Of a DNA stretch of 43,920 nt, positions 6,463-38,161 are shown one piece after another. The stretch is from Verrucomicrobiota bacterium (GTDB lineage Bacteria; Verrucomicrobiota; Verrucomicrobiia; Opitutales; Opitutaceae). Position 1 is the stretch's first letter. Each line of letters starts with the position of its first letter. A program made the position numbers and the translations under genes. Under the pieces are notes generated by a model that saw only the letters and a program-made list of their open reading frames with translations, was not told where the DNA came from and ran no database searches. The stretch spans positions 1-43,920 of the forward strand of contig JANXRL010000052.1 of assembly GCA_025352985.1 (NCBI GenBank), given 5' to 3'.

Positions 6463-6507
6463 ACGATCAGCCCCGCCACCCAGCCTGTGTTCATCCCGCC
6501 TTCCATT

Positions 6508-8724: not shown

Positions 8725-8752
8725 TCTTCTCCTCCGCTATCTTTCTTTCCCC

Positions 8753-10414: not shown

Positions 10415-10460
10415 TCCCCTGTCGGCCGCTACGCGCATTTTTCTCCCCTTAATCCCCATT

Positions 10461-12644: not shown

Positions 12645-12663
12645 TCTTCCTTAAACCCACCTC

Positions 12664-14280: not shown

Positions 14281-14307
14281 ACTCCCGCCGCCATGCCGCC
14301 CGCTCTT

Positions 14308-22007: not shown

Positions 22008-23411
22008 ATGCTCAATCGCATTTTCAAACTCACCGACCATCGCACGACGATGAGCCGGGAACTTCAGGCCGGACTGACGACGTTTGCGGCCATGGCATAT
22101 ATCCTCGTGGTTAATCCCAGTATTCTAATGAACGGTTTCGCCGCCGATCCCGCCATCGGGCATGATCCGACAACCCTGTCATTTCTGGCCACCAAAGGTG
22201 CTCTTGTCACCGTAACCGCTCTTACCGCCGCCATCGCCACGCTCCTCATGGCGTTTCTGGCCAACTATCCCATCGCGCTCGCGCCGGGCATGGGCATCAA
22301 CGCTTTTTTCGCATTCAGTATATGTCTGGGGGCCGGCATCCCCTGGCATGAGGCTCTGGGTATGGTGTTCTTCAACGGCTGCATATTTTTGCTGCTGTCG
22401 GTGACGGGCGTCCGCGAAAAAATCGTCAAGTGCATCCCCTATCCGCTGAAGATCGCCATCACCTGCGGCATCGGTATTTTCATCGCGTTCATCGGCTTGA
22501 AAAACTGCGGAGTCATCGTGGCCAATCCCGCGACGTTTGTGAGCCACGGTGATTTCACGAGCGGCCCGGTGGCGCTGGGACTCGCCGGCATCGCCCTGAC
22601 CTTCGTCCTGGCGGCCCGTCGCGTGCCCGCCGCGATCGTCATCGGTATCGCGGTTATCACGATAACCGGGTTTTTCGTGCCCAGCGGGCTCGTCGGACCC
22701 GACGGGCGGCCGCTTATGGTCACATCGCTTCCCTCGGGTATTTTTTCGTTACCTTCCTCGCCATCCCCGGTTTTCTTTAAACTCACGTTCGGGTTCATGC
22801 ACAGTGCGGACACCTTCGTGAAGGTGCTTCCGCTCATCCTGACGCTTCTGCTGGTCGATATGTTCGACAATATCGGCACCTTGATCGGCGTGACCAAACG
22901 CGCCGGTTTGCTCGACAATAGCGGCCACCTGCCGAGGGCGGGACGGGCGCTCATCGCCGATTCGATCGCGGCCATCCTGAGTTCGCTCATGGGCACATCC
23001 ACCGTCGTGAGCTATATCGAGAGTGCTTCCGGCGTCGAGGCGGGCGGGCGCACCGGACTGACCGCCGTGAGCACCGCGATGCTCATGGTGCTGGCACTGT
23101 TTTTGACTCCACTCATCCTCATCGTGCCCGCCGCCGCCACGGCTCCCGCGCTCGTGGTGGTGGGCGTGTTCATGCTGCAATCGGTCACGGAGATCGACAT
23201 GGGCGACTTCAAAATCGCCGCCCCCTGCGCCCTCACAATCATCGGCATCCCGCTGACTTTCAGCATCGCCGAGGGCATCGGTTTCGGGCTTATCTCTGCG
23301 TCGCTGCTAGCGCTCGCCACCGGCAAGCCCAAGGGGTTCACGCCCACTGGCTACGTGATCGCCGCGGTTTTCTTTTTGGAGTTCTTCCGCATATTCCCCT
23401 TCAGCGGCTGA
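22008..23411 (+). CDS. NCS2/AzgA-type purine permease (467 aa)
   Basis: Proton-coupled importer of hypoxanthine, guanine or adenine in the inner membrane. The N-terminal TTFAAMAYILVVNPSIL segment and APGMGINAFFAF are hallmarks of the AzgA (GhxP/AdeP-like) branch. About 12 hydrophobic segments run to the C-terminus, and the central MFDNIGTLIGVTKRAGLLD and GTSTVVSYIESASGVEAGGRT motifs form the substrate-binding core. Length is typical. It leads a run of seven genes with gaps of 31 bases or less, all of which fit purine or nucleoside handling, and so defines the likely theme of the operon. The exact base transported cannot be read by eye. Confidence 0.93.
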   Translation: MLNRIFKLTDHRTTMSRELQAGLTTFAAMAYILVVNPSILMNGFAADPAIGHDPTTLSFLATKGALVTVTALTAAIATLLMAFLANYPIALAPGMGINAFFAFSICLGAGIPWHEALGMVFFNGCIFLLLSVTGVREKIVKCIPYPLKIAITCGIGIFIAFIGLKNCGVIVANPATFVSHGDFTSGPVALGLAGIALTFVLAARRVPAAIVIGIAVITITGFFVPSGLVGPDGRPLMVTSLPSGIFSLPSSPSPVFFKLTFGFMHSADTFVKVLPLILTLLLVDMFDNIGTLIGVTKRAGLLDNSGHLPRAGRALIADSIAAILSSLMGTSTVVSYIESASGVEAGGRTGLTAVSTAMLMVLALFLTPLILIVPAAATAPALVVVGVFMLQSVTEIDMGDFKIAAPCALTIIGIPLTFSIAEGIGFGLISASLLALATGKPKGFTPTGYVIAAVFFLEFFRIFPFSG

Positions 23412-23428: not shown

Positions 23429-25009
23429 ATGTCAACGCCTTCCCCCGCCTCCGCCAGCCCCGGTCCTGAACCGGATTTCACCAATCTGATCGCCGAGTTG
23501 CAGCACGCGACCGGCAGCGTGCTTTCTCCTCGTTCGCTGGATGAGCGTCCGATCTACGGCACCACCATTTACCTCGCGTCCTGCCCGCTGGACACGCGCT
23601 TCGGCCCGTTTCGCGCCTACATTTTTCAGGACCTAATCGACAAACACTACATCATCGCCCTTGCGCATGGCGACGTGGCTAAGGCCAAGACTCTTTATAC
23701 CCGCCTGCACTCGTCGTGCATCACCAGTGAGACGTTACGCGGCTGCGACTGCGACTGCGTGCAACAGCTTGAAGGCGCGTTCAAGGTTATCGCCGAAAAA
23801 GGCGACGGCATCCTCTTCTACCTTTTGCAGGAAGGCCGCGGCGTCGGCTACGTCGGCAAGGCGCGCGATCGCATGCTGGTCCAGGCCTCGCTCGACCAGT
23901 TGTCCACCTTCCAGGCTTACGCCGCCATCGGCCTCAAAAAAGACCATCGCAACTACGAAAACATTTCCCACATCTGCCATCTGCTCGGCATCACGGCCTC
24001 CTTCACCGTCCTCACCAACAATCCTGACAAAGTCGATGCGATGAAGTCGCAGGGGCTCGTCGTCGCGGGCACCGAGGCGTTGGAGTTCGAGCCCTCGCCG
24101 TTTAACCTCGCCTACCTCGCCTCGAAGGCGGCCGGCGGCCACATCCTTCGCCGCCCCGCCGAGACTTCGGTGAAACGCGCCCTCCCGCCCGAACCGGTCG
24201 TGCCGTTCAAACCCCATGCCCTGCCCGAGGCCAAGCGCTTTATCTACTCGGCCAGCTACTTCCTCCCGATGAAACCGGTGGATAACGAAATTCTGCTGAC
24301 GGATGTCCAGTTCAAGGAACTCTTCCAGCGGGACGCCATCGAGCACTACATGGTCGGCCCCAAACCCCTCGTGCTCGGCTATCAGGCCATTCGCGCCAAC
24401 CGGTTCTTCGTCAAGATAGACACCGACAACCTGACGTTCTTTAAAAACGAAAATCCCAGTGATCCCATCGTCGATCTGCTGACCACTCCCTACTGGTTCC
24501 GCGTGCATGTTTACTACGACATCGTCACCAGCCAGGATTTTGTCGTCCTCACCCACGGCAAACCGCACATCTACGATATCCCCGTCGTGCGGCTGCACAG
24601 CGAATCGCTTTTCAACCGCTTTCCGCTGCGCACCGTGGAAAACCGCGACAAGATGAAGTTCTCGGTCAAGCACATCGTCACCTACGGCGTAGGCGCCATG
24701 CTTCTGCTGCACAACGATGGTCGCGGCGCCGGCTTCGGCGCGCACGCCACCGATCGCATGATGACCGACTCCAGCCAAGCCCTCTCCTCCGACGAAGCCT
24801 ACCGCAAGATCGGCGTCGGCTACGACAGCCGCGACTACGACGCCTCGATGGTCCTGCTCCGCCACCACATCCCCAATGAAAAGATTCAGATGGTGATGAA
24901 CTCGCCCGCCAGCCTCGTCAAAAAGCCCGAATATGCCGAAGCCCTCAACCGGCATAAGATCGACGTGGAAAAATGGATCTTCCTCGAAGACGAATCCTCG
25001 CGCGAGTGA
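23429..25009 (+). CDS. Tandem GTP-cyclohydrolase-II-like protein (526 aa)
   Basis: Two GCH-II-like modules in one chain. Module 1 (about 40-240) keeps the zinc cysteines in the RibA spacing, Cys97-x10-Cys108-x-Cys110 (HSSCITSETLRGCDCDC), then LQEGRGVG and VLTNNPDKV, so it could open the imidazole ring of GTP or a related purine nucleotide. Module 2 (about 270-520) repeats the layout (RLHSES at 388-393, LLHNDGRGAGFGAHATDRMM near 430, VMNSPASLVKKPEY) but has no zinc cysteines and is probably structural or regulatory. No riboflavin genes are nearby; it sits 17 bases after a purine permease and before a SIS isomerase. That argues for purine or pyrimidine breakdown rather than riboflavin. Resemblance to the yeast Urc1 concept is only an analogy. 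Confidence 0.8.
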   Translation: MSTPSPASASPGPEPDFTNLIAELQHATGSVLSPRSLDERPIYGTTIYLASCPLDTRFGPFRAYIFQDLIDKHYIIALAHGDVAKAKTLYTRLHSSCITSETLRGCDCDCVQQLEGAFKVIAEKGDGILFYLLQEGRGVGYVGKARDRMLVQASLDQLSTFQAYAAIGLKKDHRNYENISHICHLLGITASFTVLTNNPDKVDAMKSQGLVVAGTEALEFEPSPFNLAYLASKAAGGHILRRPAETSVKRALPPEPVVPFKPHALPEAKRFIYSASYFLPMKPVDNEILLTDVQFKELFQRDAIEHYMVGPKPLVLGYQAIRANRFFVKIDTDNLTFFKNENPSDPIVDLLTTPYWFRVHVYYDIVTSQDFVVLTHGKPHIYDIPVVRLHSESLFNRFPLRTVENRDKMKFSVKHIVTYGVGAMLLLHNDGRGAGFGAHATDRMMTDSSQALSSDEAYRKIGVGYDSRDYDASMVLLRHHIPNEKIQMVMNSPASLVKKPEYAEALNRHKIDVEKWIFLEDESSRE

Positions 25010-25040: not shown

Positions 25041-26105
25041 ATGGACCCTCTCGGCCATAAACTTCTTGAAGATCGACTCGCGAGCATCCCCGGTGTCCTG
25101 GCCGGCATGATCACGCGCGGCCCCGCGCCGCTCAAGACCGCCACGCTCTCCGCGCAACGCTTCATCATCACCGGCACCGGCAGTTCCGAGGCGCACGCGC
25201 GCTACCTCACGATGCTGCTGAACCTCTACTCGGACCGCGCCGCCGCCTACCTGCCGCTCTCCGGCTTTATTGACCGGCATCCCGCGGCTTTTGCCGGCAA
25301 GACGCTGGTCGTTTTCAGCCAGGGCGTGTCGCCCAACGCGCAGATTGCGCTCAATCGCCGCAGCGATTTCAGCCATTGCGTGGTGTTTACCGCCACGACG
25401 CCGGCCGCCGCGCAGGCTTCCGGCAAACCAGATCGCGCGCGCCTGCTGGAAGCTATCCTTGAGGCCGGCGGCGAACTCGTCGAATTTCCACTCGCCGAGG
25501 AATACACCACGCTCATCAGATTCGTCGGTCCGCTCGCCGGCTACCTTGCAGCCCTGCAATTCACCGCGCAGCTCGCCGGCTGCCGCTTCCCCGTGCCATC
25601 CGCCGGACTGATCCTCCCGCTGCTCCGTCAACCAGCCCCCGTCGATCTGCTCGACGCCATGATTCGCCTGCCCAGCGCCTTCTCTCAGGGCTTCAGCATC
25701 GTGACCGCCGCGCCCATCTCGGATTTCTCCCAAAACCTCGCGTGCAAGTTCATGGAAGGCGTCTTCTGGCCGTGTCCGCCCATCTCCGATTTTCTCCAGT
25801 TCGCCCACGGTCCGTTTCAACAGATGAACGCCCACCCGAAGCCCGTGATCATCCTTCAGGGCGACTCGTCGGCCGAAGCGGAGCTCGTCGGCCGCAGCGT
25901 GCGCATGCTCCGCGAAGTAGGTTTGAGCGCCTTCGTCGTGCGGGTTGAGGCGCCGCCGCTCTATTCGATTTTCGGATTTGAAGCCGCGCTCAACGCCCTC
26001 GTCTTCGCCGTGATGCGACACCAGCAAATCGACCAGATCAACTGGCCCGGCAAAGGCCGCGATGATCTTCTCTACGGCTTTTGCCCCGACCCAGCCTCTT
26101 TCTAA
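25041..26105 (+). CDS. SIS-domain phosphosugar isomerase-like protein (354 aa)
   Basis: Cytoplasmic protein with two SIS domains, like the isomerase half of GlmS without the glutaminase. The first domain (about 35-180) has FIITGTGSSEAHARY and VVFSQGVSPNAQ (the SQS..T phosphosugar loop in altered form). The second (about 200-345) has KFMEGVFWP..DFLQFAHGPFQ, equivalent to the ExxxHGP loop of GlmS. The ATG at 25041 is preferred; an open frame extends upstream into the previous gene but has no family character. It could isomerise or deaminate a phosphosugar or ribosylamine released from nucleotides by its neighbours. This role is an inference from the operon, with gaps of 31 and 6 bases on either side. 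Confidence 0.75.
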   Translation: MDPLGHKLLEDRLASIPGVLAGMITRGPAPLKTATLSAQRFIITGTGSSEAHARYLTMLLNLYSDRAAAYLPLSGFIDRHPAAFAGKTLVVFSQGVSPNAQIALNRRSDFSHCVVFTATTPAAAQASGKPDRARLLEAILEAGGELVEFPLAEEYTTLIRFVGPLAGYLAALQFTAQLAGCRFPVPSAGLILPLLRQPAPVDLLDAMIRLPSAFSQGFSIVTAAPISDFSQNLACKFMEGVFWPCPPISDFLQFAHGPFQQMNAHPKPVIILQGDSSAEAELVGRSVRMLREVGLSAFVVRVEAPPLYSIFGFEAALNALVFAVMRHQQIDQINWPGKGRDDLLYGFCPDPASF

Positions 26106-26111
26106 AATTCC

Positions 26112-27551
26112 ATGAACTCGCTGTTTTTTAAATCCGCCTTAACCGCCGTCATATTTTCCGCATCTGGCTTTGCCTCGACGCTCTATCGCGGCGCGACCGT
26201 CCTCACGCTCGCAGATGGCGACAACGCCGGTCACGCCAACGGCTACCTGCTCGTCTCCGACGACGGCACCATCGAGGCCGTCGGTCAAGGCGACCCGCTC
26301 TCGGATCCCGCCGTGCGCGCCGTCCACTTCACCGCCGACTGGAAGACGGTTGATCTCACCGGCAAAATCGTGATGCCCGGCTTCGTCTCCGGCCACGGCC
26401 ATCTCTGGCAAAGCGCCTTCCGCGGCATCGCTCCCGATGGCGAGCTCTGGCCCTGGCTCATGGCGCTCCACTGGACCTACGGAAAGTTTTTTGCGCCCGG
26501 AGATTTCGCCGCCTTCACCCGTCACGGCGCGCTCGACCAACTGCGCCACGGCATCACCACCACCCACAATCACAGCCAGTGGCTGCCCGGTCAGGACTAC
26601 GGCCTCTACCACGAACAATTCGATGCTGAATCGAAGATCCCCCAGCACTTCGTATTTTCCTGGGTCAGCCAATCGACCGCCACCGATGAGGAATGGCGCG
26701 CGCGCCTGAAACCGATGCTCGCCTTGCTCAAGCCCGCCCCGGCCACCCCTCTGCTCGGCTTCACCGTCAGCGCCAACGGCATGCCCGGCCGCAAAGGCCA
26801 AGCCCCCGACCTCCTCTCTCGCGAGATCAAGCTCGCCCGCGAATTCAACCTGCCCGTCCATCTCCACTACCTCGAACCGGCCGCCCAAGCCGAGGAAGAC
26901 CGCGCCAAATGGCCCAAGATAAAAGAAGCCGGCGCGGCTGCCCCCGGCGTTTCATACGCCCACTTCATCCAAGTGGATGAAACCATCCTCAAGGAAGCCG
27001 CCGCCGCCGGAGCCGCCATGATCTGGAACCCGCTTTCCAACGGCCGACTTGCCTCCGGCCTGGCCGACATCCCGCACTACCTTGCCGTCGGCCTCAAGGT
27101 CGGCATGGGCGAGGACGGCCAGGCCAGCGGCGACATTTCCGATCCCTTTGAAAACGTCCGCCTCGGCCTCTACGCCCTCCGCATGAAAGAGCGCAACGCC
27201 CGCGGCCTCCAGCCCATCGACATCCTCCGCCTCCACACCGTGCGCACCGCCGAGATCCTCGGCGTCTCCTCCTGCGTCGGCACCCTAGCGCCCGGCAAGT
27301 TCGCCGATTTCCTCGTGGTCGATCCCGACTCGCCCGCCACCGGCCCGGTCTTTGACGCCGCCGCTACGCTCGTCTTCGCCTGCAGCAGCCAGAATCTGGC
27401 CGCCGTTTACGTGGGCGGCCGCAAGGTCGTGAAGGACGGGCAACTCGTCGAGGACGACGTCGCGCTCGAAGCCGATGTCGCCACCCGTGTCGCCCGCGTG
27501 CGCCAGGCCGCCGCCGACATGAAAGCCCATCCCCCCGTCACGCATCCATGA
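26112..27551 (+). CDS. Exported amidohydrolase, guanine/ATZ-TRZ deaminase type (479 aa)
   Basis: Metal-dependent deaminase of the amidohydrolase superfamily (SsnA/AtzA/guanine deaminase branch). The metal site is visible: HGHLW with His95 and His97, VHLH at 250-252, His284 in YAHF and Asp335 in GMGEDGQAS. The C-terminal TRTAEILG..GTLAPGKFADFLVVD is the usual end of the beta-sandwich. The protein begins with a signal-like segment (SLFFKSALTAVIFSASGFAS), unusual for this family, and if real it places the enzyme in the periplasm. The expected substrate is a purine or other aminated heterocycle. Its stop overlaps the next start (ATGA at 27548-27551), so it is co-translated with the phosphoribosyltransferase. 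Confidence 0.85.
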   Translation: MNSLFFKSALTAVIFSASGFASTLYRGATVLTLADGDNAGHANGYLLVSDDGTIEAVGQGDPLSDPAVRAVHFTADWKTVDLTGKIVMPGFVSGHGHLWQSAFRGIAPDGELWPWLMALHWTYGKFFAPGDFAAFTRHGALDQLRHGITTTHNHSQWLPGQDYGLYHEQFDAESKIPQHFVFSWVSQSTATDEEWRARLKPMLALLKPAPATPLLGFTVSANGMPGRKGQAPDLLSREIKLAREFNLPVHLHYLEPAAQAEEDRAKWPKIKEAGAAAPGVSYAHFIQVDETILKEAAAAGAAMIWNPLSNGRLASGLADIPHYLAVGLKVGMGEDGQASGDISDPFENVRLGLYALRMKERNARGLQPIDILRLHTVRTAEILGVSSCVGTLAPGKFADFLVVDPDSPATGPVFDAAATLVFACSSQNLAAVYVGGRKVVKDGQLVEDDVALEADVATRVARVRQAAADMKAHPPVTHP

Positions 27552-28108
27552 GCCTGCCTGCTCACGTCACCTCCCTCTACTCCGAGGCCGACATCCAAAA
27601 ATCGCTCGGCGAACTCGCCCCCCGGCTTGATGCCTGGGCCGAGGAAGCCGAGGCCGAAACCGGCCGACTCCTAATGGTCGTGTGCATGTTGCGGGGTGGA
27701 GTTTTCTTTTTCGGGGACCTCCTCCTGCACATGAAAAAGTCCGTCGAGCCGGGTTTCTGCCGCGCGTGGAGTTACGCCAAAGGCCTGAACGGCCAGCCCG
27801 AAGACACCGTGCGCATGGACTGGCAAGACCTCATCGTGAAGGACCGCGACGTCGTCTTGGTGGATAACATCTGCGACAGCGGCCGCACCCTCGCCGTCGC
27901 CTCCGACTGGCTCGGCGTTTGGGGTGCTCGACAAGTCCGCACCGCCGTCATCGTGCATCGCCTCCGCGAGGATTCGCGCCACACGCCCACCCTTGCCGGC
28001 TTTGTTTATCCCGGCCCCGAATGGCTTGTCGGCTACGGCCTCCGCGACAGCGACTCCAAGCTTATGAACACCCGCATCATCGGCTTCATCCCCGGCACCC
28101 ATCACTGA
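27548..28108 (+). CDS. hpt: Phosphoribosyltransferase, hypoxanthine type (186 aa)
   Basis: Cytoplasmic type I phosphoribosyltransferase that would convert hypoxanthine/guanine plus PRPP to the nucleotide. The PRPP loop is DVVLVDNICDSGRT (101-114). The first loop, CMLRGGVFFFGDLL near 45-55, is the form found in Hpt proteins, and the C-terminal LVGYGLRDSD is the base-binding hood with the usual (V)GYGLD-like motif. Length is normal. It is coupled to the amidohydrolase by a 4-base overlap and followed 9 bases later by the nucleosidase gene, so freed bases can be recaptured as nucleotides. The gene symbol is by family resemblance; xanthine or another base is possible. Confidence 0.85.
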   Translation: MSLPAHVTSLYSEADIQKSLGELAPRLDAWAEEAEAETGRLLMVVCMLRGGVFFFGDLLLHMKKSVEPGFCRAWSYAKGLNGQPEDTVRMDWQDLIVKDRDVVLVDNICDSGRTLAVASDWLGVWGARQVRTAVIVHRLREDSRHTPTLAGFVYPGPEWLVGYGLRDSDSKLMNTRIIGFIPGTHH

Positions 28109-28117
28109 TCCCGTCCC

Positions 28118-29017
28118 ATGAAACACCTGCGCGTTCTCTTTGTCCTCCTCTTCGTTTGCCCGCTGGCCTACGCCGGCGATGGCGCCGCCAAGCCGCTGAT
28201 CGTCGTGCTCAACGCGTTTGAACCCGAGCTTCAGGCCACGCTGAAAAACCTCGGACTCGATCCCGTCAAGTCCGCCCTGCCTCGCATTCATGGCGTGCCC
28301 TTCTATCGCGGCGAGGTGGATGGCAAGGACGTGCTCGTGGTCGAAACCGGCATGAGCATGGTCAATGCCGCCCTCTCGCTCCAACTCACGCTGGACCGCT
28401 TCCCCGTCACCCAGGTGCTGTTCGCGGGCGTCGCTGGCGGGATTGACCCGGCTCTGGCCGTGGGTGATGTCGTCATCCCTGAACGCTGGGCCTACCACGG
28501 TGAAGCCGCCTACTTCAACCCCGACGGCAAAGGCGGCTACATCATCTCCGATTACTTCACGCCCAAATACTCCAACTTCGGCATGATCTTCCCCGGAAAC
28601 GTCCAGGCGACCACTGCCGCCACCGGTAAATTTCAAGACACCGCCACTTTCCCCTCCGACCCCGCGCTCCTCGCCGTGGCCCGCCGTGCCGTCGAAAAAG
28701 TAGGCCCGTTCAAAAGCGAACACACCGGTCGCGTGCTCAAGGTCGAGGTCGGCGGCACCGGCGTATCTGGCACCGTCTTCATGGACAACGCCGAGTATCG
28801 CAAATTCGTCTTCAAAGTCTGGCACGCCCGCTGCCTCGACATGGAAACAACCGCCTACGCCCATGTGTGTTATACCAACCACGTGCCGTTCCTCGCAGTG
28901 CGCTCGCTCAGCGACCTCGCCGGCGGCCAGGTCGGCAAAAACGTCGAGGAAGCCAACGACACCCCGTCCTCCACCAACGCCGCCCGCGTCCTCCGAGAGA
29001 TCATTCGCGAGATGTGA
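28118..29017 (+). CDS. Exported MTA/SAH-nucleosidase-type (phosphorylase superfamily) protein (299 aa)
   Basis: Nucleoside-cleaving enzyme of the PNP/MTAN superfamily with an N-terminal signal peptide (LRVLFVLLFVCPLAYA). Motifs: VLFAGVAGGIDPALAVGDVVIP near 105-127, the substrate loop CLDMETTAYAHVC near 245, and SLSDLAGG with catalytic-type Asp266. Classical Pfs/MTAN is cytosolic and about 230 aa; this one is longer because of the leader and a loop near 130-175. The export suggests release of bases from extracellular or periplasmic nucleosides, which the permease two kilobases and more upstream in the operon could then import. Whether it hydrolyses or phosphorolyses cannot be told. It lies within the operon, with spacers of 9 and 10 bases. 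Confidence 0.85.
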   Translation: MKHLRVLFVLLFVCPLAYAGDGAAKPLIVVLNAFEPELQATLKNLGLDPVKSALPRIHGVPFYRGEVDGKDVLVVETGMSMVNAALSLQLTLDRFPVTQVLFAGVAGGIDPALAVGDVVIPERWAYHGEAAYFNPDGKGGYIISDYFTPKYSNFGMIFPGNVQATTAATGKFQDTATFPSDPALLAVARRAVEKVGPFKSEHTGRVLKVEVGGTGVSGTVFMDNAEYRKFVFKVWHARCLDMETTAYAHVCYTNHVPFLAVRSLSDLAGGQVGKNVEEANDTPSSTNAARVLREIIREM

Positions 29018-29027
29018 TCCGCCGCCC

Positions 29028-30047
29028 GTGAAGACGCTTTTCCTTGCCGCCCTCTCGCTCTCGCTTTTTGGCCCGGCCGCCTTGCCTGCCGCCCCCGTCG
29101 GCACCGCCGCTCGTTTCGTCGAGCGGCTCGCGATGCAAAAAATCCCCGACGAGGGCTGCTGGTTCTCCGTTACCTACGTCAGCCCCGACCGCCTCGAAGT
29201 CGGCGGGCTGCCCCCGCGTTTCAAAACCGCCCGTGCCGCCGGCACCGCCATCTATGCCCTCGTCACCCGCGAGGATTTCTCGGCCCTTCATAAACTCTCC
29301 ACTGACGAGACGTGGCATTTCTATGCCGGTGATCCCATCGAGCTGCTCCTGCTCAAACCGGACGGCACCCACGAGATCGTCGTCATCGGTCCCGACCTCT
29401 TGAACGGCCAGCAACCTCAATTCACCGTTCCCGCCGGCACATGGATGGCCGCCCGCCCGCGGCGCGACGACCCCTCCGCCTACTCTCTCTTCGGCTGCAC
29501 CCTCTCCCCCGGCTTCGACTATGGCGACTACACCCCGGGCTATCGCGACGATCTCCAAAAACGTTACCCTGCCTGCGCCGAACTGATCGCCGCGTTCACC
29601 CGCGATGCGTTTCTCCACAAACCCACGGAAACCGCTCCTGTCCCGACTGTGAATCCCGCTCCGGCGACACTTCGACCCACGCTCCTCCATAACACCGACG
29701 GTCCCGCCATTCTGGTCTCCCCCGGCACCGAGCTGCACGACCTCGTCGGACGCACCGGTGCGCTGCGCAAAACCAGTCACAGCCTGGCCTACTTCGTCCT
29801 CGCCCCGGGCACCTGCAGTGGACCCGGTTATCTCAAAACCGGCGAAGAACTCATCGTGATTCTATCCGGCCAAGGCACCGCCCTGGTCGATGGGGAAACT
29901 AAACCCGTGCAAGCCGGCTCCATCCTCGTGTGCAAACCCGGCGTGCCCCACGGCCTCCAGGCCGCCTTCGATTCCCGCCTCGAGTTCTACGCATTTGTCA
30001 CCCCCGCCTTCGCCCCTGAAGACTACATACTCGTTCCGACCAAATAA
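29028..30047 (+). CDS. Exported double-cupin protein, DUF985 plus cupin_2 (339 aa)
   Basis: Starts at a GTG right after a CT-rich leader, giving a clean signal peptide (KTLFLAALSLSLFGPAALPA). Residues 22-165 are a cupin_5/DUF985 domain (YVSPDRLEVGG variant, DETWHFYAGDPIELLLL, FGCTLSPGFDY). After a proline-rich linker, residues 245-330 form a second cupin (YLKTGEELIVILSGQGTALVDG, CKPGVPHGLQ) with a metal-type Glu/His pattern. DUF985 proteins are little characterised, and the cupin_2 part would bind a metal or a small ligand. It ends the seven-gene purine run. A periplasmic fusion of the two is unusual; its role in nucleoside handling is only implied by position. Confidence 0.8.
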   Translation: MKTLFLAALSLSLFGPAALPAAPVGTAARFVERLAMQKIPDEGCWFSVTYVSPDRLEVGGLPPRFKTARAAGTAIYALVTREDFSALHKLSTDETWHFYAGDPIELLLLKPDGTHEIVVIGPDLLNGQQPQFTVPAGTWMAARPRRDDPSAYSLFGCTLSPGFDYGDYTPGYRDDLQKRYPACAELIAAFTRDAFLHKPTETAPVPTVNPAPATLRPTLLHNTDGPAILVSPGTELHDLVGRTGALRKTSHSLAYFVLAPGTCSGPGYLKTGEELIVILSGQGTALVDGETKPVQAGSILVCKPGVPHGLQAAFDSRLEFYAFVTPAFAPEDYILVPTK

Positions 30048-30057
30048 AAATCCCGGT

Positions 30058-31185
30058 TCAAGGCCCCCGGTTGAACAACCGCGCGCACAGCGACTCGAAC
30101 GCCGGCAGATCGATGTCGAACACCACGTTCGCATCGCGCTCCCCGAGCCCCGGTCCGTGACCCGACGGCCAACTGAGCGTGTTGCCGTAGCCCGCCCCGT
30201 GGTCGATGTCGGCGTCCACCGCGATGATTTCCTCGCGCGTCGCGAGTTTCGGCTCAAGTCACACCGCCACCGCCAGCTCGTCCCATAGAGGATAACCTTG
30301 CGCGTAGCGCTTGATGTAGCGCGTGACTGGCGTGTCGGCCTGCGTGCAACGGGCGATCAGCTCGGCGGTGAACAGCGTCTTGGTCGTGGGATCGATCGGC
30401 ACCAACGTTAGCTTCGGCCATGGGGAACGGAGCACGATGTGCGCGGCCTCGGGATCCCATCGAAAATTAAACTCCAACCTCGGTGTGTAGAGGTATTCCA
30501 GCGCGAAGGAGTTGTCGGCCGGCTTGGGGCTGAAACTGCCGCCCATGATAACGAGTTCCTTCACCAGCGCGACAAACTGCGGATCAAGCCGCGCCGCCAG
30601 CGCAAGATTGGAGGCGGGCCCCAGTTGCAGCAGCGTGACCTCGCCGGGAAACTCGCGGACTTTGCGAACGATGAAACCGGCGGCGCTCTCCGCGAGTGGC
30701 TTGGTCGTCGGCTCGCCCTCTTCGAGTGGCGGGATTTCGTAGGGTCCGTGTCCCGGCGCACGCTTCACGTTGGGCGTCTCGTGGTAAACTTCCATCCATG
30801 CGCCTTTGTAGAAGAGATTCCCATGGATTTTCTCCCAGCGAAGCGTCTCCTCCTTCGAATTGACCAGCGGGAAAATCGCCCCTGGCACGACGGGCACGTC
30901 GGTGCGCCCGATCAGCTCCAGAAGGCGCAGCGTATGCGTCACGTTTTCCCCGCACCAGCCGTCGCCACTGGTGATAGTGATGCCGAGCACGTCCACGTCG
31001 GGCGACTGGAGCGCCAGGACCAGCGCCTGCATGTTGCTCCCGCCCGGCCCGAGCGCGTCCTGGTCGATGATGACCTTGCGCCGCGGCGTCTCCGGCTCGG
31101 CCGCGAGGGCGGCGGACAATAAAACAACGGCCAGAAGACCGCCGCAGCCGAAATAATTCCGTTTAGAGAGAGTGGTTGTTTTCAT
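30058..31185 (-). pseudogene. Exported nucleoside hydrolase interrupted by TGA
   Basis: Inosine-uridine-type nucleoside hydrolase with a signal peptide to about residue 29. The metal loop reads DQDALGPGGSN (Asp41, Asp43) instead of the usual DxDPGxDD, a form that may belong to a secreted subfamily. Later motifs are VTLLQLGPASNLALAARL and VIMGGSF. Codon 309 is TGA (30259-30261), after PLWDELAVAV. Beyond it the same frame stays open for 66 family-like codons (LEPKLATREEIIAVDADIDH, GAGYGNTLSW) to the true stop at 30058-30060. Family members have a residue there, probably Trp, so a TGG to TGA change is likely. The truncated protein may be inactive. It is 12 bases downstream of the adenine deaminase gene. 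Confidence 0.8.
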
Positions 31186-31197
31186 TTTGAAAAATCA

Positions 31198-33027
31198 TCA
31201 TGCGACAGTCGCCGCGACCGGTGGCAAGGGCTCGAACAGCGGCACCTTTTGCATGCCTGGCACCGTCACCAATCCCTTGTCCGTGATCCGTATCGAGGGT
31301 ATCACCGCCAGCGGGATCAAGTTGAAGCCCATGTAAGGCAGGACGCACCCTGCGGCAGTCCAGGCTTTCTTCAATCGGGTGGTTTCCTTTGCCACGGCGG
31401 GTGCTCTCAGATCTGAAAGCAGTCCCGCCACTGGCAGGGCAACCTTGGCCATCACGCGCCCCCGGCGCACTACGCAGACCCCGCCCCGCATCGCCTTGAT
31501 CGTAGCCAGTGCAAGCCCCATGTCCGCCTCGTTCGTGCCGGCGATGATGATGTTGTGGGCGTCGTGCCCAACCGAACTCGCCACCGCTCCTTCGCACAGG
31601 CCGAAATCCTGCAACAACCCGTGCGCGACGTTCCCCGACTTCCCGTGGCGCTCGACGACCGTGACAAAACACAGCGCGTGCTTTTCAAAATGCTCGCTCC
31701 ACGCCGATGCGGGCTGGAGCGCCACCTTCTCGTGCAAAAGCACGATACCGGGCAGCGCGGTGCTAATCACGTTCGCCGTGACCGGTCCCTGCGGCAGCGC
31801 GGGCGCGAGCGGTTTCTTTTTCCCCAGCTTCACCGTCTGATAAGCGGCGCGAGGATAGCGGTAACGCTTGCTGAGTGCCTGGTCCAGCAGCGGAGTGACA
31901 CGCCGGTTTTTCACGACCAGCTCGCCGCCATACCACGTGCATTGCGGTTCCAGCGAGTCGTTGAGCAGCACCAAGTCGGCCCGCCGGGCGGGCGCGATGC
32001 CGCCGATCTCGCCGTCCATCGCGTAACGAATGGCCGGATGCAGCGAGCCCAGGCTCCACGCTGTCACGGGCTTCAATCCCGCCACCACCGCCTGCCGCGT
32101 CACCCAGTCCATGCCGAAGAGAAACAAGTCGTCCGCATCACGATCATCCGTGCACACGCAGACCCGCTTCGGATTCGCGCCCAGCTCGGTCACCGCCTTG
32201 ATCGCCTGCGGCAGCGAGTGCCACGGCGTGGTAGGCGGCCCGCCGCGCAGGAACACCCAGACGCCGTTTTCAAGAAAATCATCGCTGATCTCGCGGTCGA
32301 TCGCCTCATGCGTGTCGGTGATGCCGCTGGCCGCGCCCGCGGCCACAAACTCGCGCCCGTAGATGTGCCCGCAGATGGGACGTCCGCGTTTCAACGCCTC
32401 CGCCATGATCGCGTGGCTGCGGCGGTCACCTGCGGCCACCTGCACAAAATCCATCTTTTCCCCCAGCGCCACCGCCTCCGGCTAGCGGTCAAAGATGCGC
32501 CCGATCTTGGCCGGCGTAAGGTCCCCGCCGGCGGTCTCGAAATCGGGCGTGGTCGCCGGCACGGTGCTCGGCACGGTCAGATAGATCGAAAGCGGCGCGC
32601 GGCGCGCGTCCTCCAGCATCCATTCGATCCCGTCCGCGTCGCATACGTTGCCGATCTCATGGCTGTCGCAAAAAATGGTCGTTGTGCCGTTCAACAGCGC
32701 TCCTTCGGCATAGGCGCACGCCGTCATCATGCTGCTTTCGATGTGCACATGAGGGTCCACCAATCCCGGCGCGACGATCGCACCCTTGGCGTCGTGAATT
32801 TTCAGTCCACTGCCGAAAGTTTTTTTGGCCGAGCCTGCCAGTTTTACGGCGGCGATGCGCCCTCTCGTGATCCAGACTTCGCGCGCGTCGTGAATGCGTT
32901 CGGTGTAAGTTGATAGGATGCGCGCCCCCGTAATCACCAGATCGGGCGTTTCACGGCCCATAGCCACCGCGGCAAGCGTGCGGGTCAAGGTGTGCAACGG
33001 AGCGACGGAAAAACGGGTGAGCGACAT
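31198..33027 (-). pseudogene. ade: Adenine deaminase interrupted by TAG
   Basis: Full-length adenine deaminase reading (609 codons) converting adenine to hypoxanthine, broken only by a TAG at codon 182 (32482-32484). Before it: [10 protein letters not shown] metal motif and CDSHEIGNV. After it: [15 protein letters not shown], then [19 protein letters not shown], and the C-terminal [11 protein letters not shown] and [25 protein letters not shown]. The residue at the stop is probably Trp in relatives ([12 protein letters not shown]), so TGG to TAG fits. A GTG at 32472 could restart translation but would lack the HxH metal site. The start at 33027 is chosen over an in-frame ATG at 33066. It is upstream of, and probably co-transcribed with, the nucleoside hydrolase. 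Confidence 0.85.
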
Positions 33028-33085
33028 GCCCGTCTGGTTAGCAGCGCAAGTGCCATGCGCCGCCAATAATCAGCTGCGGCTGGCG

Positions 33086-33114: not shown

Positions 33115-34338
33115 ATGCCTGAAATCCGCGACTGCATCGTCCTGCACGGCCCCGATCTAGCTCCGCACCGTTGCACTCGCTTCGCGTGGGAACATGACAC
33201 GATTACCGCCATCGATTTGGCCGGCCCTTGCTTGCGAATCGACAACGGCGCGCTGGTCGTCATCCCCGGCCTCACCAACGGCCACACCCACATGGGAGAC
33301 AGTTTTTTGCCGGATGGAGCGACCGGCCTCACGCTCGAAGAGGGTTTTTTCCGTCCGCACGGATACAAATACCGCGAACTTGCCAAACTCACCAGAGAAG
33401 CGCACCTGCCGCACATCACCGCCCACCTTGCCTACATGGCGCGCACGGGCACGGTGAGGCATCTGGATTTTCGCGAGCAGGGCGCCTACGGCGCGGCACT
33501 TTTGCGCGAAGCTTCCGAACTCACGGGAGTGCAATCTGTCATCCTCGGACAGTTCGATGGCGTGCCGTTCACTGCGGAAGAATTGCGCGCCAACCAAGCG
33601 GACCTGCCGGCAGCCAATCGCGCCGAACTCGACGCCATGCTCTCGATCGCCGACGGATTTTCCGAAAGCACGATGAACGATCTCACCGACGGCGCCTGGC
33701 GCGAAATCCGCGAGGTGACAGAGCGGTGCGGGAAACTGCGCGCCATCCACTGCCTGGAGAACGCCGCCTATCGCGACACCTCGCTCGCCGTCACGGGACG
33801 GGGCGACCTCGTGCGCGCCATCGAGGTTTATGATGCGCACCTCATCGTTCACCTGACCGTGGCCACGTCCGATGAGATCGCGTTGCTCGTGCGCAGCGGC
33901 AAGACCGGCGTGATAAATCCCCGCGCCAACGCCAATCTCGGCCTGCCATTGCCCCCGGTGGCCGCACTCCTGCACGCGGGCGCGAAGCTTCTGCTCGGCA
34001 CCGACAACGGCCTGCTCAACTCTCCCTCGATGCTGGCCGAACTCGATTTCACCTACAAAATCGCCAAGTCGCAATTTGCCAACGCGCTCGATCCTGATCC
34101 TGCCGCCATCCTCAAGCTGGCAACCAGCAACGTGCGCGGTGTCTTGGGGGGCGATGTTTACGGCTGGCTGGAAACCGGGCTGCCCGCCGATTTTGTCGTG
34201 CTCGATTTTAACCGGCGGCACCTGCGCGCGAGCCGCCACGCCGTCGCAAGCGTGCTTACCCGCGTGACCCCGGATGATGTGCTCGCCACCTATCGTCAGG
34301 GTCGCGCCTTGTGGCGTGACCCTCGGTTTTTGTCGTGA
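33115..34338 (+). CDS. Cytoplasmic amidohydrolase-family deaminase (407 aa)
   Basis: Metal-dependent hydrolase of the ATZ/TRZ-like amidohydrolase group. The metal site is GHTHMGDS (His57, His59), then HLDFREQGAYG near 120, CLENAAY and VHLTVA in the middle, and LGTDNGLLNSP with Asp297. The C-terminal segment LETGLPADFVVLDFN is the usual closing beta-sandwich. There is no signal peptide. It is transcribed divergently from the adenine deaminase and lies in the purine block, so deamination of a purine or thio-nucleoside is plausible, but the substrate cannot be read. It converges on the DUF3891 gene with a 28-base gap. Confidence 0.85.
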   Translation: MPEIRDCIVLHGPDLAPHRCTRFAWEHDTITAIDLAGPCLRIDNGALVVIPGLTNGHTHMGDSFLPDGATGLTLEEGFFRPHGYKYRELAKLTREAHLPHITAHLAYMARTGTVRHLDFREQGAYGAALLREASELTGVQSVILGQFDGVPFTAEELRANQADLPAANRAELDAMLSIADGFSESTMNDLTDGAWREIREVTERCGKLRAIHCLENAAYRDTSLAVTGRGDLVRAIEVYDAHLIVHLTVATSDEIALLVRSGKTGVINPRANANLGLPLPPVAALLHAGAKLLLGTDNGLLNSPSMLAELDFTYKIAKSQFANALDPDPAAILKLATSNVRGVLGGDVYGWLETGLPADFVVLDFNRRHLRASRHAVASVLTRVTPDDVLATYRQGRALWRDPRFLS

Positions 34339-34366: not shown

Positions 34367-35167
34367 TCAACCGACGGCTGTCAAGACGATGGCGGACACG
34401 ATCACCGGCGCGTCGGCAAACGCCTTTGCAAAGGAGACTGCATCAACTGCGGCGGCCTTGGGGATTTCCCGATAACTGAGATGTAACTTTACTTCCGATA
34501 CGCCGAGCGGCCACGGGGAAAGCGCATAGGCTCCTGGTCCCGCCGGACGGCAGTTGATGGCATGGCGGCGCCCGTGTTTGTCCGGATGGGTGTGCCGCAG
34601 GTCTCTCGGCTGGTCGTAGCCGGAACATGCGATCAGGGAGAGATTGTCGCAGCACTGGAGAAACTCGAAACCGCGCCGCAAGGCGTCGGCCGACGCGCCC
34701 AGACTGGCGGCGGTTTCCCGCTGCCACGCCAGCTGTTCAGCTAGGAACGCCTCGTAAGCCGGACGATGTTCGGGGCGGATGGTGGATGCGTCTGCCTGCT
34801 CGGTGAGCAGGTTGTAGGTGTGCATGGATGTGAGTATGCCCGCGTAAACATCCTGCGCGGCGACGGCGGCCGTGGCATCCTTGCGCACGCGCAGGTAAGA
34901 GGGCAGGTCGATCTCTTCGAAGGCACTGTAGGCACCCACCAGCGCGCGGGTGAAAGCCTCCGGCTTTCCGTGTTTCGTTAGCGACGGGGAGGCATCGCGT
35001 GCCAGCCAGCCATCGTCGTGGTGATAAACCGCATGGCGCACCGAGGCGAATGGCTCGGGCCGTTCAAAATTTTCGTTGCCCCAAGCGTCGGCAAACTCTC
35101 CCGCAAGACGTGCGTGATCAGGATGGGTGACTAAAATCCAAGACGAATCGGTTTCGTTGCGAATCAT
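34367..35167 (-). CDS. DUF3891-family protein (266 aa)
   Basis: Cytoplasmic protein with the DUF3891 pattern: WILVTHPDHARLAGEFADAWG near the N-terminus, VYHHDDGW near 48, FLAEQLAWQ near 142, and FLQCCDNLSLIAC near 170. The histidine/aspartate-rich HPDH and HHDD clusters resemble HD-type metal sites, so an uncharacterised metallo-hydrolase is possible, but the function is unknown. Length is typical for the family. It has its own transcription unit, convergent with the amidohydrolase and divergent from the TonB receptor across a 237-base gap in which I see no convincing promoter. Confidence 0.8.
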   Translation of the reverse strand: MIRNETDSSWILVTHPDHARLAGEFADAWGNENFERPEPFASVRHAVYHHDDGWLARDASPSLTKHGKPEAFTRALVGAYSAFEEIDLPSYLRVRKDATAAVAAQDVYAGILTSMHTYNLLTEQADASTIRPEHRPAYEAFLAEQLAWQRETAASLGASADALRRGFEFLQCCDNLSLIACSGYDQPRDLRHTHPDKHGRRHAINCRPAGPGAYALSPWPLGVSEVKLHLSYREIPKAAAVDAVSFAKAFADAPVIVSAIVLTAVG

Positions 35168-35404: not shown

Positions 35405-38161
35405 ATGAAAACCATAAGCACACTAACGCGGATCGGCGTCGGGGGCATCGCCCTCGTTGCGCTTGCGTCCGCTGGCTTCTCCCAAACTGCTACCAAGCCG
35501 GACGCTACCGTCACACCGACTCCCGCTGCGAAAACCACCAAAGACGCGGTTGTTTTGGACACATTCACCGTCAAAGAGGTGCCGGACGACGAGCAAATCA
35601 TGCCCACGACACGTCCTATTTCGAGCGTGCTGGGCGATGATCGCAATATCATCGACACGCCGCGCTCTGTCTCGTCCGTGAACAAGGATCTGATGCGCCA
35701 AGTCCGCATTAAATCCGTCACCGACTTCTCCCAATTCGCGCCCGGCGTTTATACCGCCGCCCGCTACGGTCTCGCCACCACTCCGATGGTGCGCGGCGAC
35801 TTGGCCGAACTTTACTTCAACGGCCAGCGCGCCAAGTATAGTCGCGACAGCGTGCAACCTAGCTTCAACGGCGTCGAGGCCATCGACATCGTCAAGGGTC
35901 CCGGTTCGGCCATCTACGGCCCGCAGAGCAACGGTGCCGCCGGTTACACCAATTTCGTGACCAAGCAGCCCTACTTCGACAAACAGCACACTGAGGTCTC
36001 GCTGAGCTACGGTGCCTTCAATCCTGATAAAAACTACTCCAACACCGAGTGGCAGATTGATAATGGTGGTCCCATCAGTAAGGACACCGCCTACCGCGTA
36101 AGCTATCTCGGCCGCGAAGGCTCGACCTACTACCAAAACACCAAGGACAACACCCAAGATTTCTTTGCGGCGTTATCTCACAGCTTCAGTTCGACTGCCA
36201 AGTTGGATGTTTGGGTCCAGTATTATAAACAAACCTATAGTGAAGTTTCCGGTATCAATCGCGTCACCCAAGACCTGATTGATCACGGCACCTACATCGC
36301 GGGTGTTGCAACTCCCTCCGGCTTTGGAGTGCCATCTACCATCGCGGCTCCCACGCTCGTCAAAATCAAGCCCTACCAATCGGTGGTCGGCACGGATGAC
36401 ATCGCCCACGCTGAGCGTTTCCAGACCCAGGCGATTTTTAAGACCGAGATCACTCCTGATACCTACCTTAAGAATTCTTCCTACTTTGAAAATAGGACAT
36501 CGGACAAGTATGAGCCTGCCATTCTTTACTCTGAATACGTTCCCACGGATTGGAATATCCAGAATCGCACCGAATACGGGGCAAAGTTTGACACCGGCAG
36601 CTTCGCTAACAGCACGATCAGTGGTCTTGATCTAAAGTATGAACGCCTGATCAGCTACCAGTCTTTTTTCGACGAACAATATAGCACCCAAGACCTTTCA
36701 AAGCCCTCAAGCACTTGGTCCAACGTAGGCGGTATTACCAATGGTGCTTTCAACGGTGCAGTGCCAGGCCATCTCCAATACGGTTCCGACTTGGGCTACA
36801 ACGGCAACTACGGTGGCAATCAAGATTCCAAGATCGTGGACATCGCTCTTTTCCACCAGCACGACATCAAGTGGACCAACAAGTTCAGTTCGTTGGCCGG
36901 TCTTCGGCTCGACCACCTGAAAGCGGATGACCAGAGCCCTGAATTTATATCGCGCCCAGGCACCGTTTATCATCCCGCAGGCTTTAGATATGATAATTCG
37001 GCGAGCTCCAATAACTTCTCCTACTTCCTAAGCTCCGCTTTCAAGCCAACGCCCACGAGTTCGTTTTACGCCACTTACAACGTGGCCAAGGCGACCACGG
37101 GAAGCTCCAACTTCGGAGGTATTAATTCAGGTGGAACGGATGCTAGCCTTCTTAAGTCACTCCGGGGTATCACTCACCTCACCGAGCTCGGCTACAAGTT
37201 TGTCGCTCTGGACAACAAGCTCTACTCCGCTATCGCTCTTTATAAGCAGGATCGCGTCGATGTTGGCTTTACGGGCGCTATTGGTAAGCGTTTGGCCAAA
37301 GGTATCGAGGCTGAATCTGTGTATCAGGTGAACAAAGACCTGAGCCTCATCGCCAATCTGACCTACCAGCAGGTTGACCGTGTGGAACCTAGCTTGTCAG
37401 TGTTTCAGCAAAATACCACTCCCTATACCTTACAGCCCGGCGGTTCGTATGTTGCCGGCGGCGGTGGCAACACCCCTGTTCCCTATAAACGTCAATACGC
37501 CGGCACGCCCGAATGGCTGGGCGGCTTGCGCGCCAGCTATAAGTTCACCAAGAGTTTCTCGATGTCGCTCGGTGGACAGTTTACTGGATCGCAGTTGGCC
37601 AATGCCGAAGGCACACTCAATATTCCCTTCCAGTATAAGATTAATTTGGTCGCAACCTACACCTATAACAAGGCTTGGGACTTTCAGGTCAATGTGGACA
37701 ACCTGACCAACGAGCGTAACTGGACCGTGGGCGATCCGGTGGCGGAGGAAAACAATAGACGCAGACTTAATCCGGCCGTTTGTGGTCCGAGGTTGAGCGG
37801 GTTGAAAGTGGCTTTGGTGGAAGACGAGGTGAAGGAGGGGGATTTGCTGCGCAACGCACTCATTCAAGAGGGCGCCCGGGTCTGCGCCTTCAACTCTGCG
37901 ACTGATTTCTCTCGCTGGTTGAATGGAGGGGAAGGCCCGGACGTATTGATTACGGATTGGGTCTTAGCCGACGGTGCGGGGGACGAACTTATCCGGCAAG
38001 TGCGCGCCAGCGATGCGGATGTGCCGGTGATTTTAATGAGCGGTCGTTTACAGGAGAATGAGCTTGCGGATGGCTTGCTAACCGGCCGTGCCCGCTTCCT
38101 CAACAAGCCGTTTATGATAGAGGAATTGATCGAGCTTGTGGCGGAATGGAATCAGTCCTGA
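35405..38161 (+). CDS. TonB-dependent receptor fused in frame to a response-regulator receiver domain (918 aa)
   Basis: Residues 1-780 are an outer-membrane TonB receptor: signal peptide to SAGFSQ, TonB-box-like VVLDTFTV, plug domain (SVNKDLMRQ..PMVRGDLAELYFNG, IDIVKGPGSAIYGPQ), then the beta-barrel to VNVDNLTNERNWTVGDP. There the normal end (last strands and terminal aromatic residue) is missing. The frame continues through an Arg/Asn-rich linker into a complete receiver domain (802-918): acidic pocket Glu806/Asp807, phospho-acceptor Asp851 (VLITDW), Ser879 and Lys901 (FLNKPF). A barrel and a cytoplasmic phospho-receiver cannot work together, so this is probably a deletion joining a receptor gene to the 3' end of a hybrid histidine kinase. 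Ligand unknown; the siderophore-receptor style is only a resemblance. Confidence 0.85.
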   Translation: MKTISTLTRIGVGGIALVALASAGFSQTATKPDATVTPTPAAKTTKDAVVLDTFTVKEVPDDEQIMPTTRPISSVLGDDRNIIDTPRSVSSVNKDLMRQVRIKSVTDFSQFAPGVYTAARYGLATTPMVRGDLAELYFNGQRAKYSRDSVQPSFNGVEAIDIVKGPGSAIYGPQSNGAAGYTNFVTKQPYFDKQHTEVSLSYGAFNPDKNYSNTEWQIDNGGPISKDTAYRVSYLGREGSTYYQNTKDNTQDFFAALSHSFSSTAKLDVWVQYYKQTYSEVSGINRVTQDLIDHGTYIAGVATPSGFGVPSTIAAPTLVKIKPYQSVVGTDDIAHAERFQTQAIFKTEITPDTYLKNSSYFENRTSDKYEPAILYSEYVPTDWNIQNRTEYGAKFDTGSFANSTISGLDLKYERLISYQSFFDEQYSTQDLSKPSSTWSNVGGITNGAFNGAVPGHLQYGSDLGYNGNYGGNQDSKIVDIALFHQHDIKWTNKFSSLAGLRLDHLKADDQSPEFISRPGTVYHPAGFRYDNSASSNNFSYFLSSAFKPTPTSSFYATYNVAKATTGSSNFGGINSGGTDASLLKSLRGITHLTELGYKFVALDNKLYSAIALYKQDRVDVGFTGAIGKRLAKGIEAESVYQVNKDLSLIANLTYQQVDRVEPSLSVFQQNTTPYTLQPGGSYVAGGGGNTPVPYKRQYAGTPEWLGGLRASYKFTKSFSMSLGGQFTGSQLANAEGTLNIPFQYKINLVATYTYNKAWDFQVNVDNLTNERNWTVGDPVAEENNRRRLNPAVCGPRLSGLKVALVEDEVKEGDLLRNALIQEGARVCAFNSATDFSRWLNGGEGPDVLITDWVLADGAGDELIRQVRASDADVPVILMSGRLQENELADGLLTGRARFLNKPFMIEELIELVAEWNQS

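Follow-up and report, generated by a model that had tools for sequence, protein, structure and literature searches.

A tandem GTP cyclohydrolase II-like protein in a purine gene array of Verrucomicrobiota, a candidate for ring opening at the nucleotide level

The window analysed here, a 43,920-nt contig of an Opitutaceae genome (assembly GCA_025352985.1, contig JANXRL010000052.1), carries a compact array of seven genes on the + strand with intergenic distances of 17, 31, 6, −4, 9 and 4 bases. The array opens with an NCS2-family purine permease (22008..23411; Pfam Xan_ur_permease, E 8.7e-41; 44–45% identity to annotated NCS2 permeases). The gene under study (23429..25009) lies 17 bases 3′ of the permease and 31 bases 5′ of the next gene, and its reading frame encodes a protein of 526 amino acids with two Pfam GTP_cyclohydro2 (GCH-II) matches. 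It is followed by a protein resembling SIS-fold phosphosugar isomerases and deglycases (25041..26105) and by an amidohydrolase of the guanine/8-oxoguanine deaminase type (26112..27551; Pfam Amidohydro_1, E 9.5e-33), which has weak hits, under the cut-off, to the NCBIfam models of 8-oxoguanine deaminase and guanine deaminase and whose N-terminus resembles a signal peptide. The array continues with an HGPRT-like purine phosphoribosyltransferase (27548..28108; Pfam Pribosyltran; TIGR01203 HGPRTase E 3e-20, under the cut-off) and an MTAN-like nucleosidase with an apparent signal peptide (28118..29017; Pfam PNP_UDP_1, E 2e-41), and ends with a cupin protein of uncertain start codon (29022..30047; Pfam Cupin_5 and Cupin_2). 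The tandem gene is thus part of a purine permease operon, as the initial annotation had proposed, and this operon also holds salvage genes.

Further genes of purine metabolism flank the array. On the − strand lie an apparently secreted inosine-uridine nucleoside hydrolase (30259..31185; Pfam IU_nuc_hydro, E 1.6e-50) and an adenine deaminase reading frame (31198..33066; TIGR01178, E 1e-63) that is interrupted by one in-frame TAG near position 32482; its counterparts in relatives have longer, apparently intact frames. They are followed by a PRK07213-like amidohydrolase, here called amidoB (33115..34338, + strand), a DUF3891 protein (34367..35167, − strand; Pfam, E 2e-53) and a TonB-dependent receptor identified by Pfam (35405..38161, + strand), which probably provides uptake across the outer membrane for this set. 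The receptor frame continues into a response-regulator receiver domain (residues 802–912). No such fusion was seen in related loci, and it is likely a misassembly, a frameshift or a recent rearrangement. Rfam searches gave no riboswitch match near the gene, either in the window or in seven further loci.

Both halves of the tandem protein score above the curated Pfam cut-off, module 1 (23579..24070, + strand) with an E-value of 7.5e-38 and module 2 (24494..24913, + strand) with 9.2e-12, and the whole chain reaches 170.6 bits against the PF00925 cut-off of 23.3, placing it in the GCH-II superfamily. Module 1 carries the zinc cysteines C97, C108 and C110, which are unchanged in an alignment of 15 relatives, together with EGR at 135–137, the catalytic pair D172/R174 and K201. 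The corresponding HSSC..CDC motif was found at all 79 readable loci among 80 sampled. Module 2 retains a DGRG motif and a D-S-R-D-Y pattern, and in the alignment lacks all three zinc cysteines, indicating that the early description of two GCH-II modules in one chain, only one of them with Cys97/108/110, was correct. Module 2 may have no catalytic activity of its own or may play an accessory part beside module 1. In a side branch represented by loci L104 and L108, module 1 is intact and module 2 is degraded at its conserved motifs; amidase and RidA genes are neighbours there, and no SIS gene is found nearby. Apparent internal TGA codons in six orthologues suggested selenocysteine or other recoding, which we rejected, as they are ordinary stop codons near the C-terminus.

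The AlphaFold model of the tandem protein (pLDDT 76) has E. coli RibA as its best Foldseek match (2bz0, E 6e-12). VIA-align superposed residues 44–220 on 2bz0 with a Z-score of 17.1 over 168 residues, compared with a Z-score of 13.5 for the model against UTP cyclohydrolase. Aligned with 11 RibA proteins (E. coli, H. pylori, M. tuberculosis and eight others), module 1 keeps, in E. coli numbering, R49, H51, S52, C54, C65, C67, Q70, E92-G93-R94, T114, D126, R128, T149-N-N-P152 and K154. Among these are the residues that we take to contact GTP in RibA and the arginine that presumably attacks the α-phosphate. Two departures are fixed: Glu53 and Tyr105 of RibA are replaced by Ser and Arg (S96 and R148 in our protein) in every sampled member, by motif in all 79 readable of 80 loci. 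For comparison, Glu53 is missing in three and Tyr105 in one of the 11 RibA proteins. The tandem protein scores 138.1 bits with the RibA equivalog model TIGR00505, below its cut-off of 205.85. It therefore resembles RibA in the fold of module 1, the zinc cysteines, EGR, D126/R128 and the GTP-contact residues, and differs from it in the second, zinc-less module, in E53S and Y105R, in its purine-salvage neighbours and in its phylogenetic position.

In a tree of GCH-II domains, module 1 forms one clade (support 99/97) apart from 11 RibA, 8 RibBX and 2 Urc1 sequences, so that it belongs with neither RibA nor Urc1, the two families against which the initial annotation had asked for a phylogeny. The clade stands also when module 2 is omitted, and the joining of modules 1 and 2 in the tree may reflect long-branch attraction, so that descent of the pair from an internal duplication is no more than a possibility. 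Orthologues are widespread in Verrucomicrobiota: the tandem protein occurs in 23 of 56 near relatives (53–90% identity) and in 13 of 240 Verrucomicrobiota genomes. The best 80 loci from a scan of 84,980 species are all verrucomicrobial as far as their titles tell, one title reading only “bacterium” and one “PVC group bacterium”. No tandem form was found in plasmid records, where the matches listed were single-module proteins alone, and we rejected a spread of the gene on plasmids. A second copy of the gene, in pieces and apparently a pseudogene, is present in the congeneric genome G010 (C1:483104-484124).

The gene neighbourhoods of these best 80 loci were surveyed for recurrent partners. The SIS gene is the most frequent (41 loci, in 40 of them immediately downstream and in the same orientation), and the permease is present at 25, in 20 cases directly upstream of the tandem gene. 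Other recurrent neighbours are RidA (21 loci), TonB receptors related to that of the window (18), a purine nucleoside permease (NUP, 17), an adenosine-deaminase-like protein (ADA), an amidase and an Amidohydro_2 protein (16 each), a phosphoribosyltransferase (12), DUF3891 (9), adenine deaminase (7), amidoB (6) and MTAN (5). A creatininase-family protein is found at six and an FmdA-type formamidase at four of the loci. DUF3891, recurring beside the tandem gene, may catalyse another step of the same pathway. Purine genes thus recur across the surveyed loci. In G010, the genes for DUF3891, the tandem protein, the SIS protein, the phosphoribosyltransferase and amidoB face a divergent group of creatininase-family protein, FmdA, RidA and amidase. 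Nearly the same set is clustered in the Puniceicoccaceae locus L111, whose tandem protein is only 51% identical, together with the permease, NUP, the adenosine-deaminase-like protein and adenine deaminase. Common to both suites are the creatininase-family protein, FmdA formamidase, RidA, amidase, SIS protein, phosphoribosyltransferase and amidohydrolase, and in our view such a resemblance between distant genomes is more than chance.

The SIS-fold protein matches no Pfam family at 0.001 (two relatives match none even at 0.1) and no NCBIfam model, and profile-profile comparison with E. coli GlmS gave no sequence link, so that its kinship is visible in the fold alone. Its model (pLDDT 92) has the two lobes of a SIS fold along its entire length (326 residues at rmsd 2.9 against 2aml) and is closest to NagB-II 8fdb and to 2aml (Z 28.7), followed by GlmS (Z 28.4) and the deglycase FrlB (8glr; Z 21.8). 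Thus, it shares its whole-length fold with the SIS-fold deaminases and deglycases, to which FraB also belongs, and differs from them in lacking a detectable sequence match to them. By inspection, its GxGSS and HGP motifs and C-terminal Lys resemble those of the GlmS type. Because of the missing match to known SIS models, the substrate class is assigned from fold and motifs, and we expect a ribosylamine rather than a hexosamine to be the substrate.

Co-occurrence ties the two proteins together. Among the 240 Verrucomicrobiota genomes, the SIS protein is present in 12 of 13 that carry the tandem protein and in none of the other 227 (Fisher 2e-19, uncorrected for ancestry), and among the 56 near relatives in 17 of 23 carriers and none of 33 non-carriers (Fisher 1e-9, likewise uncorrected). 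In G002, G007 and G012 the two genes lie on different contigs or about 80 kb apart, indicating that their co-occurrence is not wholly explained by joint inheritance of an operon. The partnership is not obligatory, since the nearest relative, G003 (90% identity), has the tandem protein without the SIS protein, which is also absent from five other carriers.

A gene labelled GTP cyclohydrolase II could also be a relocated riboflavin gene: the RibBA protein would have lost its GCH-II half, and the tandem protein would supply the first riboflavin intermediate from another locus. The only other PF00925 protein of the genome is RibBA, whose GCH-II half is degenerate (RVHSENLLSDVFRQRGTDS) and has lost the zinc cysteines, and an archaeal-type GCH III, a conceivable riboflavin substitute, was not found. 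Our searches of the genome therefore gave no zinc-competent GCH-II besides module 1, which conserves the catalytic residues of RibA, and for this reason the riboflavin explanation needs serious weight. However, 51 of 56 relatives have RibH, irrespective of the tandem protein. Those non-carriers in which a PF00925 protein was read have only a degenerate RibBX and keep RibH, the exception being G038 from another family of the order. Since these non-carriers retain RibH with a degenerate copy and no GCH III, the riboflavin gap of Opitutales is wider than the tandem gene. Moreover, RibH and RibBX, the riboflavin genes sought in the survey, are absent from all 80 neighbourhoods, so that the claim of a location outside a riboflavin context holds for the locus. 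Module 1 falls outside the RibA clade and carries Y105R, and riboflavin synthesis has no step for a SIS enzyme. Grouping with RibA, in a genome with no other GCH-II, had been named as an outcome that would speak against the purine idea; the first part is contradicted by the separate clade, and as to the second the genome has another GCH-II only in the form of the degenerate RibBA half. On balance, we consider a riboflavin role unlikely, although it is the strongest of the alternatives.

The degenerate GCH-II half of RibBA was seen in nearly all Opitutales read. RibH and a RibBA without zinc cysteines are kept in this order (C144/C106 in the window's own genome, L139-L165 in relatives), and in most of the genomes read neither a further recognisable GCH-II nor a GCH III was seen.

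A parallel is offered by the URC pyrimidine pathway, in which the UTP cyclohydrolase Urc1 (7eev, 7ej3; Zhang 2021, as cited in PMC12507026) acts. In Gordonia and Azospirillum we observed urc1-urc4-upp clusters, in which the gene for a GCH-II-like enzyme stands next to one for a phosphoribosyltransferase acting on a base and to a dedicated gene further downstream. With a phosphoribosyltransferase in the set, our locus follows the same plan of making a nucleotide, opening its ring and removing the sugar; it has a purine instead of a uracil phosphoribosyltransferase and the SIS-fold protein in the place of Urc4, and the two cyclohydrolases are distant in the tree. The tandem protein scores 20.4 bits with the Urc1 model NF005536 (cut-off 403). 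This model matched none of the 240 Verrucomicrobiota genomes, and the control genomes gave no match either. The earlier comparison with Urc1 thus stands for the logic of the route; the protein itself is not Urc1, a membership that we rejected on score, tree and neighbours, the latter being the SIS-fold protein and the HGPRT-like phosphoribosyltransferase.

We therefore favour, with a probability of roughly 60%, the interpretation of the locus as a catabolic operon for purine ring opening. In the proposed order of steps, nucleosides would be cleaved outside the cytoplasm, and the bases would be imported by the NCS2 permease, deaminated and loaded onto PRPP by the phosphoribosyltransferase. Normal metabolism would raise the nucleotide to a purine triphosphate, most likely GTP, which is favoured because module 1 keeps the GTP-contact set of RibA and the arginine for attack on the α-phosphate; XTP or ITP are possible substrates instead. 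The zinc site of module 1 would then open the imidazole ring with release of pyrophosphate to give a ribosylaminopyrimidine 5′-phosphate, and the SIS-fold enzyme would cleave the exposed glycosylamine and return ribose 5-phosphate. Ring opener and deglycase make a coherent pair, since GCH-II chemistry leaves a ribosylamine and SIS-fold enzymes act on sugar-phosphate amines. Finally, the pyrimidine would be dismantled by amidases, a RidA protein and formamidase, whose genes are clustered in several relatives. The cost of spending GTP on catabolism speaks against this reading, although the URC pathway likewise spends UTP.

Ring opening and deformylation might be divided between two enzymes. Streptomyces GCH-II paralogues with Met at the position of RibA Tyr105 stop at the formamide, and with Arg at this position module 1 may do the same, leaving a separate formamidase to finish where a species has one. 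The change of Tyr105 to Arg together with creatininase-family and FmdA neighbours makes such a split plausible. A precedent exists in S. meliloti and Brucella, where the formamide intermediate AFRPP is deformylated by creatininase-like BrbF, once annotated as a creatinine amidohydrolase (PMC9478397). As in the BrbF/ArfB step, a creatininase-family protein adjoins the tandem gene in several relatives; unlike there, the similarity of the neighbouring proteins to ArfB is weak (E 5e-4, far under the cut-off), and riboflavin is not the evident product. Creatininase-family proteins occur in 22 of 23 carriers and in 10 of 33 other genomes (Fisher 1e-6), and only some of them adjoin the tandem gene. 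The only one in the window's genome is distant, on another contig (C128; L184). There it is clustered with NMT1-like transporters and with glutamine-synthetase-like and urea-carboxylase-associated-looking proteins (6490-14725), names that, creatininase apart, were given by inspection, and as a whole the cluster resembles one for scavenging nitrogen. The downstream amidase is common in non-carrying relatives too and did not turn up in the genome of the window, and we rejected it as an obligatory partner.

The distribution of xanthine dehydrogenase is in line with a route of this kind. Six Opitutaceae gave strong matches to XdhB (TIGR02965, above about 690 bits), and none of the six carries the tandem protein (Fisher 0.0015 within the family, uncorrected for ancestry). 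At 1e-30, XdhB has no match in the window's genome or in 21 of the other 22 carriers, and the remaining carrier, G025, shows a weak partial match only. The initial annotation had suggested a breakdown of purine nucleotides that does not pass through urate, and gene context, distribution, active-site residues and XdhB exclusion all favour this idea, in which the turnover of a purine nucleotide is a prediction. Carriers thus probably break the purine ring at the nucleotide stage and bypass uric acid.

Two other explanations would keep the enzyme and change its purpose. Rather doubtful, and somewhat more so than a riboflavin role, is a biosynthetic role, in which the opened purine nucleotide would be a precursor of a specialised metabolite or of a modified base. 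Other bacteria use GCH-II paralogues in specialised pathways, as GCH-II is used for toxoflavin and GCH-I for deazapurines. However, the neighbours here are genes for import, deamination and hydrolysis, no biosynthetic set recurs, and the set is conserved across 51–90% identity in many genera. Least probable of all is the salvage or detoxification of damaged purine nucleotides such as 8-oxo or formamidopyrimidine nucleotides, to which the weak similarity of the secreted amidohydrolase to 8-oxoguanine deaminase might point, as damage-control enzymes rarely have uptake genes of their own, a TonB receptor and a complete set for salvage around them, and it is simpler to assume that normal bases are preferred.

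The catabolic reading would imply a third way of degrading purines, independent of urate and of molybdenum, in which a nucleotide is made, the tandem GCH-II opens its imidazole ring, a new SIS family strips off ribose 5-phosphate, and formamidase, creatininase-family protein, amidase and RidA complete the breakdown; for this full scheme we see an even chance. In the purine breakdown described so far it is the ring of the free base that is opened, either once the base has been oxidised to xanthine or urate or along the reductive yanthine route (PMC12507026). These pathways do the same job, supplying purine as a nitrogen or carbon source, and differ in opening free-base rings after molybdenum hydroxylases have acted. 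A description of a nucleotide-level route or of such an operon was not found in open-access papers. Each of the enzymes belongs to a known superfamily and their arrangement is new; should assays agree, the entire pathway would be new as well. If true, it would be to purines what the URC pathway is to pyrimidines, would give functions to the SIS-fold, DUF3891 and tandem GCH-II families, and would correct the label “GTP cyclohydrolase II, riboflavin” that automatic annotation likely assigns. It would also explain how purines could be used by many Verrucomicrobiota of fresh water, soil and gut that lack xanthine dehydrogenase.
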